Assembly: GCA_947627385.1 (NCBI GenBank)
Contig: CANQVV010000009.1
Span: forward strand, 1-32,818
Reading direction: 5' to 3'
Length of the DNA: 32,818 nucleotides
From: an uncultured Bacilli bacterium
Lineage (GTDB): Bacteria; Bacillota_I; Bacilli_A; RF39; UBA660
Every line of letters starts with the position of its first letter. Within the stretch, counting starts at the first letter, position 1. This document shows positions 80 to 5,279 of this stretch, piece after piece. The notes beneath the pieces are model-generated. The model had not been told where the DNA came from. It saw only the letters and a list, made by a program, of their open reading frames with translations, and ran no database searches. The position numbers were made by a program, and so were the translations under genes.

Positions 80-105
80 AAAAAACAGAGACCCAAAAGG
101 GTCTC
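80..105 (-). terminator. Rho-independent terminator after the surface protein gene
   Basis: A perfect 7-bp stem (GAGACCC 88-94, GGGTCTC 99-105) closes an AAAA loop. Read on the minus strand it is followed by TGTTTTTT. It lies about 60 bases past the stop of the 164-1603 gene. GC-rich stems are rare in this DNA, which supports a real terminator. Confidence 0.85.
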
Positions 106-163
106 CTAAGGATTGTTTGCTCTATTTTAACGTCTTCGTTGACGAGTTTGTTTTATATAGATT

Positions 164-1603
164 TTAATTGTTAATCACTTTGTATGGACTACTTTTCGTC
201 CCATCTCCTAGGATTTTTGCTGTGGATGAAAGATAGAAGACAGGTCTCACTGAGAATATATAGCCCAAACCGTAGTCACTCCAACCATCATATTCACTAA
301 AGCGGTACGCACGGACAACCGTGCTGGTACCACCATACACACCACGGCGAGTCATTAACCATTCGTATGATGCTCTTGAGTTGAGTCCATCTTTGTTGAA
401 ATATAACCATGTGTTGTGCAATTTCCAAGACGACCCGGCATTTCCTCTTGTATTTTCATCTGCTCCATCATAATAACTATAATAATAATCATACCAATAC
501 ATTAATCCTATTTTGGCTGTTAATGTTGGGTTGTCTTTCCAATTGTATGTTTCACTTTTTATGTTTCCGCTTGTTCCGACATAGTGCGTCGTATCTATTG
601 CTCCACTTTCTATTGCATACATTGCATCTCCATTATATTTATTTAAAGCACCTGTATCATTGGTATCACCATATAACCATTGATGGTCACTTATTAAGTT
701 ATACCATGTACTTGCAGTTGTTTCTCCGTTTATTTCATCTCCGGATCGCAAGTAGTCGTATTTTTCACTATCGACAAATATATCTGTCCATTCTTTACCT
801 AGTGCGGAGCCTGAACCTGTTTGTGTTCCATTACTTGTTCCATTTATTCTCTTGAATAATTCACTATCTGGCCAATCTGGACATTTGCCAGCGGGACAAT
901 AATATGTATTTGATGGGTCTACATTATATCTATCATTCCACGCAAAATCAACTGTGCTCCCTTCTTTTATAAATGTTTCTTTTATGAGTTTCATTTCTCC
1001 ATCTGGGGTTATTCCAATTATTCGATACATATATTTATCTATTAAATCATTATTTGCCCCACAATTCTCGGTTGTTCCAAAGCATATCCAATTGGTCATT
1101 TGAGCTGCTTCATCGGCATCGGCTGGGGCTGCTTGATACCTATACATATCTCCTTGAATTGTTGGGCTTAAATCCTTGGGCTTACTTTCTAACAATTCTA
1201 ATGATGTCATTCCTTTTACTAAATCAAAATATAATGTACAATATATTGTTTTATCTGTCTTTATTGATACTATATCTCCATTTATTGATAATACATTTGT
1301 TAAGTCTTCTATTGGACTATTATTTCCATCATTACATTCACTTTGTTCTATATTTAATACATATCCGTTATTTATGGCATCAAATATACTTCCATCATAA
1401 TTTTCATAACTAGTTCCATCTTCATTTGGAACCATTATTCCAAATTCTTGTTTCCATATTTCATTCATAATTGGTATATTATTATCATTACTACTTTTAC
1501 TTTTTAAACTTATTAAATTTCTAACTATTAATGGCACCAATATTATTTCTATTATTACTCCTAGTACTATTAATTCTTTTCTATATTTGTTGATAACTTC
1601 CAT
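164..1603 (-). CDS. Single-pass surface protein with DUF6273-like C-terminal domain
   Basis: About 479 residues. One hydrophobic anchor (residues about 11-30) is followed by a long extracytoplasmic part rich in Tyr, Trp, Asn, Gly and Ser. The C-terminal half has the pattern of a large family of gut Firmicutes/Mollicutes surface proteins: MYRIIGITPDGEMKLIK, then KIGLMYWYDYYY, then SVRPVFYLSS and a final GDGTKSSPYKV. I recognise the family pattern (DUF6273-like, possibly C-type-lectin-like) but no function. The ATG at 1603 is preferred over the upstream TTG at 1612 because AGGAAGG (1614-1620) sits about 10 bases before the ATG but abuts the TTG. The gene is visibly richer in G+C than its neighbours. 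Its promoter spacer contains a G10 tract, so expression may be phase variable. It is monocistronic, with its own terminator. Confidence 0.8.
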   Translation of the reverse strand: MEVINKYRKELIVLGVIIEIILVPLIVRNLISLKSKSSNDNNIPIMNEIWKQEFGIMVPNEDGTSYENYDGSIFDAINNGYVLNIEQSECNDGNNSPIEDLTNVLSINGDIVSIKTDKTIYCTLYFDLVKGMTSLELLESKPKDLSPTIQGDMYRYQAAPADADEAAQMTNWICFGTTENCGANNDLIDKYMYRIIGITPDGEMKLIKETFIKEGSTVDFAWNDRYNVDPSNTYYCPAGKCPDWPDSELFKRINGTSNGTQTGSGSALGKEWTDIFVDSEKYDYLRSGDEINGETTASTWYNLISDHQWLYGDTNDTGALNKYNGDAMYAIESGAIDTTHYVGTSGNIKSETYNWKDNPTLTAKIGLMYWYDYYYSYYDGADENTRGNAGSSWKLHNTWLYFNKDGLNSRASYEWLMTRRGVYGGTSTVVRAYRFSEYDGWSDYGLGYIFSVRPVFYLSSTAKILGDGTKSSPYKVINN

Positions 1604-1634
1604 ATTATACAATCCTTCCTATTTTATATAGTAA

Positions 1635-1664
1635 ATTATATAATACCCCCCCCCCGAAAGTCAA
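1635..1664 (-). promoter_or_regulatory. Sigma-A-type promoter with G10 tract in the spacer
   Basis: On the minus strand TTGACT (1659-1664) is followed by an 18-base spacer and TATAAT (1635-1640). The spacer contains ten consecutive G (1646-1655 as C on the plus strand). Transcription would start near 1628, giving a leader of about 25 bases with the ribosome site AGGAAGG. Slippage in the G tract would change spacer length around the 17-base optimum and so promoter strength. Confidence 0.75.
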
Positions 1665-1702: not shown

Positions 1703-1729
1703 AAAAATGGAAATTAACTTTCCATTTTT
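1703..1729 (-). terminator. Terminator hairpin enclosing the exporter gene's stop codon
   Basis: A perfect 11-bp inverted repeat (1703-1713 with 1719-1729) has the loop GTTAA on the minus strand; the TAA in the loop is the stop codon of the 1714-3510 gene. The 3' arm ends in TTTTT. A second hairpin (1687-1693 with 1699-1705) follows at once, ending in TTTT. Confidence 0.65.
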
Positions 1730-3510
1730 TCAAATTGACTATTATATAAATCGGCATATTTGCCATTTAATTTTAGTAATTCTTCATGAGTTCCTTGTTC
1801 GATAATATTACCATTATCCATCATCAATATTAAATCGGCATTTTTTATTGTTGATAAACGATGGGCAATGATAAATGAAGTTCTACCTTCTGTTAATTTA
1901 TCCATTGCTTTTTGAACTAATTCTTCGGTTCTAGTATCAACACTACTAGTAGCTTCATCTAAGATTAAGAATGGCGCATTTTCTATCATACCACGAGCAA
2001 TAGTTAAAAGTTGTTTTTGTCCAGATGACAATGTATCATTATCAGATAGAATTGTATCATAGCCACGAGATAGAGATTTAATATAATGATCAAGACCAAC
2101 TACTTTACAAACTTTTTTGATATCTTCATCTGAAACATTACTTTTATTATAACGAATATTTTCTTTGATAGAACCTTCAAATACCCAAGTATCTTGTAAA
2201 ACCATAATGAATAAATCATGAATATTTTCCCTAGTTAACTCTTTGGTAGATACCCCATCAATTAAAATATCACCATCATTAATTTCATAAAATTTCATAA
2301 GAAGATTAACCATCGTTGTTTTACCAGCTCCGGTTGGACCTACTATGGCTATTTTTTCACCAGGTTTAACTGAAACATTAAAATCTTTGATAATAGTTTT
2401 ATCTTCATCATAACCAAATTTAACATGTTTAAATTCAATTGCACCCTTAACTTTATTTTTATCTAATACTTTTGTTAAATTCTTTTCATCATTCATTTCT
2501 TCTTCATCTAAAAATTCAAATACACGCTCGGAGGCTGCTGCACAAGATTGCAAAGATGAGAATGATTGGGCAATTTGTGATAGTGGTTGAGTAAATAATC
2601 TAACATATAACATAAATGCTACAATTACACCAAAATCAATAACATTATTCATGGTTAAAAGTGCTCCCACTATACAAACACATACATATCCAAAATTACC
2701 AATAAAGCCCATAAATGGATGCATTAAGCCAGATAAAAATTGACCTTTTCTAACACTGTCAAATAATTCATCATTAATTTCATCAAATTTTTGATTAGCT
2801 TCATCAACACCATTATAAACTCTAACAACATTATGATTTGAATACATTTCTTCAATATGACCATCAAGCACACCAATACCTTGTTGTAATCTATCAAAAT
2901 ATTTTTGAGAACGACTAATAACTAAAAACATAAAGATAAAACCAATAATACTTGAAGTAATGGCAGTAATAGCCATTATACCATTAGTTATGAACATCAT
3001 CACAATTGAACCAATTAAAAGCGTTATCGAACTAACTAATGTACCTAAACTTTGGTTCATCGTCATACTTAAAGTATCAACATCATTTGTTACTCTGGAT
3101 AAAATATCACCATAACTATTTTTATCGAAATATTTAAGAGGCATTCTATTAATCTTTTCTGTTATTTCTTTTCTTAATAATTTAGAAAATTTATTTGTAA
3201 CGATGGCCATTATAAATTGTTGTAAATAACCAAATATTGCACTTATTATATAAATAATAAGTAAAATTAAAGAGATATTTCTTACCCTTACCATATCAAT
3301 ACCAGCTATTAAACCTTCGGTAATTAAATTAGTAATATCTCGAAGTTTATCTGGACCAATAATAGACAGAATTGCACTTAACATAGCCAGTACTATGGCA
3401 ATAACAATAGGTACTAAGAAAGGACGACAATATTTAATTAAACTTTGCATTGATTTTTTAAAATTCTTTGGTTTTTCTACTTGTCTTGGGCCACGTCTAC
3501 CATGATTCAT
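1714..3510 (-). CDS. ABC exporter half-transporter, catalytically competent subunit
   Basis: 598 residues, membrane-fused ATPase of the multidrug exporter class (MdlB/BmrD/TM288-like). Six-helix membrane domain about 30-330, then a nucleotide-binding domain: Walker A GPTGAGKTT (391-399), signature LSSGQ (494-498), Walker B FLILDE with the catalytic Glu at about 519, and switch His at about 550 (AHRLST). The ATPase site is complete, while the signature deviates from LSGGQ, as expected for the subunit that lends its signature to the degenerate site of a heterodimer. Its ATG overlaps the stop of the upstream partner (ATGA, 3507-3510), so the two are translationally coupled. The substrate cannot be read from sequence; drugs, peptides or lipids are possible. 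Confidence 0.92.
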   Translation of the reverse strand: MNHGRRGPRQVEKPKNFKKSMQSLIKYCRPFLVPIVIAIVLAMLSAILSIIGPDKLRDITNLITEGLIAGIDMVRVRNISLILLIIYIISAIFGYLQQFIMAIVTNKFSKLLRKEITEKINRMPLKYFDKNSYGDILSRVTNDVDTLSMTMNQSLGTLVSSITLLIGSIVMMFITNGIMAITAITSSIIGFIFMFLVISRSQKYFDRLQQGIGVLDGHIEEMYSNHNVVRVYNGVDEANQKFDEINDELFDSVRKGQFLSGLMHPFMGFIGNFGYVCVCIVGALLTMNNVIDFGVIVAFMLYVRLFTQPLSQIAQSFSSLQSCAAASERVFEFLDEEEMNDEKNLTKVLDKNKVKGAIEFKHVKFGYDEDKTIIKDFNVSVKPGEKIAIVGPTGAGKTTMVNLLMKFYEINDGDILIDGVSTKELTRENIHDLFIMVLQDTWVFEGSIKENIRYNKSNVSDEDIKKVCKVVGLDHYIKSLSRGYDTILSDNDTLSSGQKQLLTIARGMIENAPFLILDEATSSVDTRTEELVQKAMDKLTEGRTSFIIAHRLSTIKNADLILMMDNGNIIEQGTHEELLKLNGKYADLYNSQFEKMES

Positions 3511-5279
3511 TTTAATCCCTCCATATCTTTTTCAAGTTCACTTTGGGAAAGTTGAGATAAAGCAATTTCTTTATAAACTTTACAACTTTTAAGTAATTCT
3601 TTATGAGTTCCCATACCAACTAATTTACCTTCATCTAACACTAATATTTTATCAGCATCTTTAATTGTCCCAATTCTTTGAGCAACGATTAAATTAGTAG
3701 CATCTTTTGTATATTTTTTTAATTCTTTTCTTAAAGTAAAATCAGTTTTATAATCAAGGGCACTAAAAGAATCATCAAAAATATATATTTCGGGATCTCT
3801 GGCAATTGCCCTAGCAATTGCTATTCTTTGCTTTTGACCACCAGAAATATTAGTACCACTTTGAGCTAAGTCAGCATTATATTTATCTGGCATATTTTCA
3901 ATAAAATCTTGGCCTTGGGCAACTGCAACAGCTTCTTTTATTTTAGCATTACTTGGTTTATTTTTACCGTTATCCCCATAGGCAACATTATCACTTACTG
4001 AGCCTCTAAAAATAACAGCTCTTTGGGATACATAGCCTAATTTATTATTAAGTGATGCTATTTTATAATCTTTAACATTAACACCATCTACTAATACTTC
4101 ACCATCTGTGGCATCATAAAATCTTGGTATTAAATTTATTAAAGTTGATTTACCACTACCAGTTGAACCAATAAAAGCAACCGTTTCACCCTTATTTGCT
4201 TTAAAAGAAATATTCTCTAAAATACATTCCTCGGCATCAGGATATTTAAAAGATACATTTTTAAATTCAACTGTACCAACTTCTTTGCCTTCTGTCACTG
4301 TACCATCTTTAATTTTTTCCTCGGTTTCTAATACTTCTAAAATTCTTTTTGCTGATACTGATGCTCTTGGATAAATAACAAAAATCATAATAAGCATCAT
4401 AAATGACATTAATACTTGCATTGCATAAGATGAGAATACTACCATATCACCAAACAAATTAATTTTATCTAACATATTAGCTTTTTCAATTAAAATTGCC
4501 CCAATAAAATAGATTGATAGAGAAAGACCTGATGATATTAAAGACATTACTGGTGACATTATTCCTAATGTCTTTTGATTAAATAATTGCACATTTTTTA
4601 ATTCTTCATTGGCACTTTCAAATTTCTTTTGTTGATAATCTTCGGCATTAAAGGCTCTAATTACTCTAATACCGGTTAAATTTTCACGTGTTATTCTATT
4701 TAAATTATCAGTTAACTTTTGAACTATTTTAAATTTAGGAAATACCAAAGACATAAGTATAGCTATCGTAATAAGTAAAATTACAACCCCAATACCGGTA
4801 GCCATTGTCCAAGAAAAATTTTTGCCTGCTATTTTAATAATTGCCCAAGTAGCCATAATTGGGGCTTTAATCATTGCTTGTAAACCCATACCAATAAGCA
4901 TTTGCACTTGGGTAACATCATTAGTAGTTCTCGTAATTAAAGAACTTGTAGAGAACTCTTTAATTTCTTCCATACTAAATTTTCCAACTTTTTCAAAAAT
5001 TGATTTACGGGTAATCTTACCAAAGTAGGCCGCTACTTGTGCTGCAAAATAACCAACAATAAAACTAGCAATTAAACTGCCAAAAGCACAAAGAAGCATA
5101 TAGCCACCTTCTTTTAATATTGCAGCCATAGTACTACCCTTAGTTTGAACGAGTACCGTAATTTGTGACATATAATCTGGAATTTTTAATTCTAAATAAA
5201 CATTAACAGAAATAAATATAACACAAATTAAAGCATATAAAAAATTTCTTTTGCCTAATTTTTTAAACAATTTAAACAT
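3507..5279 (-). CDS. ABC exporter half-transporter, degenerate-site subunit
   Basis: 590 residues, membrane domain then nucleotide-binding domain, the BmrC/TM287-type partner of the next gene. Walker A GSTGSGKST (371-379) and signature ISGGQ (478-482) are intact. The Walker B catalytic Glu is replaced by Asp (IFDDS, about 503) and the switch-loop His by Gln (AQRIGT, about 534). These two substitutions are the established hallmark of the degenerate site in heterodimeric exporters. Complementary degeneracy and the 4-base overlap make an obligate heterodimer very likely. AAGGAGG stands 7-8 bases before the ATG. It is first in the two-gene unit. Confidence 0.92.
   Translation of the reverse strand: MFKLFKKLGKRNFLYALICVIFISVNVYLELKIPDYMSQITVLVQTKGSTMAAILKEGGYMLLCAFGSLIASFIVGYFAAQVAAYFGKITRKSIFEKVGKFSMEEIKEFSTSSLITRTTNDVTQVQMLIGMGLQAMIKAPIMATWAIIKIAGKNFSWTMATGIGVVILLITIAILMSLVFPKFKIVQKLTDNLNRITRENLTGIRVIRAFNAEDYQQKKFESANEELKNVQLFNQKTLGIMSPVMSLISSGLSLSIYFIGAILIEKANMLDKINLFGDMVVFSSYAMQVLMSFMMLIMIFVIYPRASVSAKRILEVLETEEKIKDGTVTEGKEVGTVEFKNVSFKYPDAEECILENISFKANKGETVAFIGSTGSGKSTLINLIPRFYDATDGEVLVDGVNVKDYKIASLNNKLGYVSQRAVIFRGSVSDNVAYGDNGKNKPSNAKIKEAVAVAQGQDFIENMPDKYNADLAQSGTNISGGQKQRIAIARAIARDPEIYIFDDSFSALDYKTDFTLRKELKKYTKDATNLIVAQRIGTIKDADKILVLDEGKLVGMGTHKELLKSCKVYKEIALSQLSQSELEKDMEGLK

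Follow-up and report, generated by a model that had tools for sequence, protein, structure and literature searches.

What is a run of ten G residues doing between the two boxes of a promoter, in DNA that otherwise contains almost no runs of G or C? The question arises from a 32,818-nucleotide stretch of an uncultured Bacilli bacterium, the whole of which is called the window here. On the minus strand, from 1664 to 1635, the promoter reads TTGACT-ttc-GGGGGGGGGG-tatta-TATAAT, and it is followed by AGGAAGG and an ATG at 1603. The features of the locus are as follows.

1659 to 1664, minus strand: -35 hexamer TTGACT, a position common to the 21 cassettes of the genome (TTGACA or TTGACT)
1646 to 1655, minus strand: G10 tract in the promoter spacer (C10 on the plus strand), the proposed slippage switch
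1641 to 1658, minus strand: 18-bp spacer ttc-G10-tatta, with ten uninterrupted Gs
1635 to 1640, minus strand: -10 hexamer TATAAT, inside the conserved TATTATATAAT
1614 to 1620, minus strand: ribosome-binding site AGGAAGG, ten bases 5' of the ATG, within the leader that the cassettes have in common
164 to 1603, minus strand: surface-protein gene of 479 aa, belonging to a large paralogue family of the genome
1502 to 1600, minus strand: predicted N-terminal membrane helix at residues 2-34, from the DSSP assignment of the AlphaFold model and from hydropathy
167 to 1213, minus strand: predicted outer domain, residues 131-479, with a fold like that of Thomasclavelia ramosa IgA peptidase residues 32-305 and, weakly, of C-type lectin domains
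87 to 106, minus strand: terminator-like hairpin with a T run just 3' of the gene, at the gene end
1703 to 1729, minus strand: AAAAATGGAAA/TTTCCATTTTT hairpin that separates the promoter from the ABC-exporter genes upstream, possibly an insulating terminator

The window promoter and its gene

The promoter is the sole 11/12 match to the sigma-70 consensus, and the top-scoring promoter, in the first 6 kb scanned. Apart from its tract, the 32.8-kb window, with a GC content of 24.6%, contains no run of six or more Gs or Cs; the next-longest runs are five Cs and four Gs, and by our own arithmetic about 2e-4 runs of G or C of this length (≥6) would be expected from base composition. The initial annotation had described TTGACT, 18 bases and TATAAT with ten Gs in the spacer, which held exactly, and had called G or C runs otherwise almost absent, which held as well. 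It was silent on the strand, and it could not know that the genome has about 21 promoters of this kind and that they belong to a family-wide system. A homopolymer of G between recognizable -35 and -10 boxes satisfies one criterion for a contingency locus of the porA/opc type. An invertible promoter (inverton) was considered for this locus and rejected for want of suitable flanking repeats: the inverted repeats found around the promoter were only short AT-rich pairs, none of which frames it convincingly.

The gene itself is probably monocistronic, because a terminator-like hairpin with a T run follows it directly, and with hairpins at both ends (106-87 and 1703-1729) it looks like a stand-alone unit. 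Nearby, a DNA/RNA non-specific endonuclease gene (PF13930; 5372-6088, minus strand) adjoins the two ABC exporter genes (1714-5279).

The AlphaFold model of the protein is of good confidence (mean pLDDT 86) and predicts a membrane helix at residues 2-34, a disordered stalk at about residues 33-52 and a folded outer domain. No lipobox cysteine is present in the N-terminal helix. Residues 131-479 matched the N-terminal part of the T. ramosa IgA peptidase (9qa6) with a Foldseek E of 9.4e-7 and a VIA Z of 15.2 over 233 residues, at 4.3 A and 16% identity. Many C-type lectin domains matched the same region with Z 5-6 over about 105 residues; the only clear match was 9qa6. The likeness to the peptidase is structural only, as the remainder of that enzyme is unmatched and no activity is implied. 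Searches of Pfam and NCBIfam gave no family assignment for the protein and the PDB held no convincing sequence relative, while DUF6273 matched weakly in 6 of 31 relatives. The description of the product as a single-pass, surface-exposed protein is consistent with the helix and outer domain, from which exposure is predicted by the model and not measured. A binding role may be imagined, and this is a guess.

Poly-G promoters in the genome and among its relatives

The draft genome searched comprises 1.16 Mb in 66 contigs, is 71% complete and is represented by one consensus assembly. It contains 22 separate runs of G8 or longer, every one of them (22/22) inside a promoter-like spacer and with the Gs, never Cs, on the sense strand of the downstream gene. 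All but one (21/22) fit a shared cassette, TTGAC(A/T)-N2-3-G8-10-TATTATATAAT. The remaining run, on contig C16, has TATACT in place of TATAAT, and the same promoter occurs with TATAAT in a related genome (G154). A reversed control pattern had 0 matches in the genome.

The likeness between cassettes extends beyond the promoter, for most of the 21 have a common leader that continues for up to 180 bases, and in some the start codon of the surface gene is the ATG used in the window. In many others (L018, L014, L011 and similar loci), nothing but a very short ORF follows the shared ATG, and the surface gene has its own start codon about 180 bases downstream. For about half of the tracts the end of a contig is no more than 400 bases away, and ten lie well inside contigs; that many contigs end beside a cassette is probably due to the repetition of the cassette itself.

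In all, about 21 surface genes have a homopolymer promoter of their own, and some paralogues have interrupted tracts or none. Interrupted tracts were seen in the cassette promoters of two paralogues, L221 (C10:28802) and L226 (C8:19215), as ccaaggaggaa and GGGaGGGG. Judging from sequence alone, paralogues with interrupted G tracts are likely to be locked switches.

The genes behind the tracts are of one broad kind. Across 112 such genes, drawn from this genome and related Bacilli, 110 encode an N-terminal hydrophobic segment; among baseline ORFs the figure is 159 of 421 (38%; p=5e-36). Their domain families vary and include laminin-G/concanavalin-like, FGE-sulfatase-like and DUF6273-like types. 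By eye, a few tracts of relatives (L048, CANRDL010000017.1; the third tract of L075; L085) precede other genes, encoding a glycosyltransferase-like protein, an 866-aa P-type-ATPase-like protein and a small soluble protein.

The pattern is widespread among relatives. Within the genus, 25 of 38 species have it, the highest count being 39 copies. Within the family, where 145 genera were sampled with about one genome each, 24 have it and the highest count is 42; the reversed control gave 0 throughout. A few genomes of other families of the class contained one or two scattered copies, probably by chance or as isolated cases. These counts cover one class only, as the phylum sample contained no other. 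Most of the named records with the pattern are MAGs entitled "uncultured Bacilli bacterium" that come from rabbit ("Lapin") samples and goat caecum. Flanking bases differ between genera, and the tract may abut the -35 box, the -10 box or neither, always remaining between the two.

Isolated cassette-like promoters also occur under the labels of other taxa, namely L078 (JAIRMX010000184.1, Elusimicrobiota) and L064 (Clostridia), possibly as a result of binning error or transfer; L078 carries, in addition, a run of G14 at the end of its contig. A scan of IMG/VR returned 55 single matches, mostly of exactly G7, of assorted GC content and beside unrelated genes, and no relative of the window protein was found on viral contigs. 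A phage origin of the cassette was therefore rejected.

Tract length, spacing and the proposed switch

If the tracts slip, promoters alike in every other base should differ in the number of Gs. Promoters of 11 genomes were grouped by every base except the G run, and in 10 of the 11, flank-identical promoters with more than one tract length were found, the comparison being between paralogous copies and not between strains. Genome G153 has 12 promoters with G8 and 13 with G9 that are otherwise identical, and G158 has flank-identical promoters with G7, G8 and G9. In the genome of the window, the TTGACACC flank group includes G8, G9 and G10, and the window promoter has a flank-identical twin (TTGACTTTC) with G8 on contig C48 against its own G10. 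Lengths overall run from 7 to 12, with the consensus mostly at 8-9. Such differences in the tract alone, between identical flanks, match what slippage is expected to yield. Of course, not all of them are independent events, because paralogous cassettes are partly homogenized copies.

Corresponding loci in another species of the genus also differ in length. The G10 of L013 is G9 in L067, where 2.0 kb of upstream DNA aligns at 81% identity, and the G8 of L011 is G9 in L095 (1.9 kb upstream, 76% identity). At two further pairs, L118/L150 and L147/L050, the upstream 1.2-1.5 kb aligns (91% and 83%) and the type of poly-G cassette differs, which suggests that cassettes or whole antigen genes have been swapped in fixed slots.

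A change in tract length is also a change in spacing. The tract-free TTGAC...TATAAT sites of the genome, with spacers of 15-20 bp, have a sharp peak at 17 bp (21/40). The poly-G spacers are mostly shorter, with eight of 15 bp, eight of 16, three of 17, one of 18 (the window) and one of 20, so that 16 of 21 fall at 15-16 bp (Mann-Whitney p=1.8e-4). At the loci of related Bacilli, 95 of 134 poly-G spacers are likewise of 15-16 bp against a mode of 17; some other genera lie on the long side, at 18-20 bp, and one genus has a 16-bp spacer in 22 of its 27 listed promoters. Most consensus copies thus miss the common optimum by a base or two; by inference, this might reflect a population in which most of these promoters are weak at any given moment. 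It is also conceivable that the G tract itself moves the optimum. With G9, the window promoter would have the 17-bp spacer that is the mode of the tract-free promoters, in agreement with the earlier statement that 17 bases are optimal and one lost G reaches them. In N. meningitidis porA, steps of this size are known to matter: expression is high with 11G, 2-fold lower with 10G and 13-fold lower with 9G (PMC3639595).

The mechanism proposed is as follows. The G10 run would serve as a contingency tract between the boxes of a promoter for the vegetative sigma factor, and slipped-strand mispairing at replication would add or remove Gs. Each such change would bring the -35 and -10 boxes closer together or move them further apart, and so alter the rate at which the surface gene is transcribed; the window copy, at 18 bp, would stand one G from the 17-bp optimum. 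About 21 promoters, each with its own surface gene, would vary independently, and independent switches would give rise to a population with many combinations of surface proteins.

The genomes establish the anatomy of these promoters, the purity and repetition of their tracts, their restriction to surface genes, the differences in tract length alone and the persistence of the arrangement across species. Slipped-strand phase variation of the surface repertoire through promoter spacers is the likely explanation, with length change within a strain, its reversibility, its effect on expression and its benefit all inferred. It fits best because of the tract-only differences, the confinement of the tracts to spacers, their free position within them, their placement ahead of surface genes and the existence of interrupted relatives. 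The proposal of a phase-variation switch in the initial annotation is supported to that extent, as the best-fitting reading.

The loss of mismatch repair as a driver of such variation was rejected, as MutS1 is intact in this genome and in 33 of 38 of the genus. Its presence should lower slippage at mononucleotide tracts. Meningococci, of course, possess MutS yet still vary, and variation in their mismatch-repair mutants is 100-1000 times faster (PMC3639595).

Three other explanations need to be weighed. The G tract could be a fixed element, either an operator bound by a shared regulator or a stiff stretch of spacer, through which the surface genes are coordinated as a regulon, with length differences merely incidental. 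The strong conservation of the cassette within each genome, its position ahead of one functional class, the narrow range of lengths (8-9 in most copies) and the fact that in this genome the sense strand always has G and never C all speak for such an element, and the narrow range, together with the one genus in which 22 of 27 spacers are of 16 bp, could indeed mean a fixed preferred length. However, the tract lies directly against the -35 box in certain genera and against the -10 box in others, and its lengths of 7 to 12 alter the spacing of the boxes. Nor do tract and flank lengths compensate for one another, as flanks totalling 7 bp and flanks totalling 8 bp both carry G8-10. A fixed element is thus unlikely. 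Less likely still is that the tracts are young relics, without a switching role, of a cassette spread by duplication and gene conversion. Cassettes that are near-identical within a genome and different between genomes are a sign of concerted spread, as is a shared leader of up to 180 bases. Against this, tracts with unrelated flanks occur in 24 genera, so purity must have been kept or regained over long times; loci whose upstream DNA has diverged by 19-24% retain pure tracts of different length; and placement is nearly exclusive to surface genes.

Finally, the tracts could be artefacts of sequencing or assembly, with homopolymer lengths misread or contigs misjoined. Homopolymer lengths are error-prone, and contig ends, where repeats break short-read assemblies, are no more than 400 bases from about half of the tracts. 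This can be all but excluded, as the same architecture recurs in independent rabbit and goat caecum assemblies from different projects and dozens of species, and ten tracts of the genome are well inside contigs. An error of one base in length would leave the main conclusion standing, though it would weaken the comparison of spacings.

Paralogues beside putative repressor genes, known systems and meaning

In a protein search, the genome proved to encode about 25 paralogues of the window protein. Eight tract-free paralogues (L223, L225, L227, L228, L229, L231, L232 and L235) have a small HTH_3 (Xre-like) gene upstream. Seven of the HTH_3 genes are complete and divergent (contigs C20, C11, C4, C16, C60, C32 and C25); the one on C32 falls just under the Pfam cut-off, and the paralogue on C25 has an internal stop. 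At the eighth, on C5, the match to the surface gene is confined to its first 29 residues, at a contig end. A paralogue on C12 has neither a tract nor a detected HTH_3 gene. Some promoters of the HTH_3-linked paralogues overlap visible inverted repeats, such as ATACTCAT...ATGAGTAT on C11. The same surface family may therefore have a second mode of control, based on repressors; with few loci and repression only inferred, this is the least certain part of the analysis.

The tail of the long poly-G leader aligns with one such putative operator region (score 53, against 42 for the best of 500 shuffles), which suggests that the cassette was inserted ahead of genes formerly under repressor control. 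A bolder reading combines two statements, and the pair together could as readily prove wrong as right: that up to 42 scattered promoters with G in their spacers make up one of the largest transcriptional contingency systems known, and that one family joins members switched by chance to members with a private repressor, the cassette having captured genes that repressors once controlled.

The mechanism has precedents. In Neisseria meningitidis, porA, opc and fetA have poly-G or poly-C between -35 and -10 (PMC2791445), and the earlier claim that spacer homopolymers are a known ON/OFF mechanism, with porA and opc as examples, held on reading the literature (PMC2791445, PMC3639595). The likeness is close, a G/C homopolymer in the sigma-70 spacer of a surface gene, with its length setting the distance between the boxes (PMC2791445, PMC3639595). 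However, those are single unrelated genes of a proteobacterial pathogen, whereas in the gut Bacilli the same type of promoter stands before about 20 genes per genome, and up to 42, many of them forming one paralogous repertoire. For porA, length change in populations and its effect have been demonstrated, while in the gut Bacilli both are inferred.

A second precedent is provided by the Vlp lipoproteins of Mycoplasma hyorhinis, where every vlp promoter contains a homopolymeric A tract and the genes switch on and off independently (PMC10502178). In the gut bacterium, about 21 surface genes have a homopolymer promoter of their own, while some paralogues have an interrupted tract or none. M. hyorhinis has a small genome and is related to the Bacilli. 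In contrast, the vlp tracts are poly-A and serve a small set of lipoprotein genes in a pathogen; the gut Bacilli have G tracts, loci scattered over contigs and an intact MutS, and the window protein lacks a lipobox cysteine. Among gut bacteria, the invertons of Bacteroidales switch surface genes at random at the population level (Jiang et al. 2019, cited in PMC11868660), but there the promoter flips between inverted repeats, and here the variable element is a homopolymer.

No description of such a system in RF39-like or other gut Bacilli was found in the literature searched, which covered few subscription papers or preprints; the initial annotation, too, knew of none for such gut proteins. What is already known, then, is the mechanism (porA, fetA and opc, and the poly-A of vlp). 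What is new is that it occurs in this host group, that it reaches 20-42 promoters in a small genome, that it has spread in the manner of a cassette and that it coexists with putative private repressors.

The finding amounts to 20-40 putative promoter switches in about 1.2 Mb, in gut Bacilli known only from draft genomes. TTGAC-N-G8+-N-TATAAT offers a simple signature for finding such systems in other uncultivated genomes. Nothing that we found describes the carriers as pathogens, so surface variation may be a part of ordinary life in the gut, among antibody, phages and glycan niches. This idea is testable, since tract lengths can be counted in existing metagenome reads.
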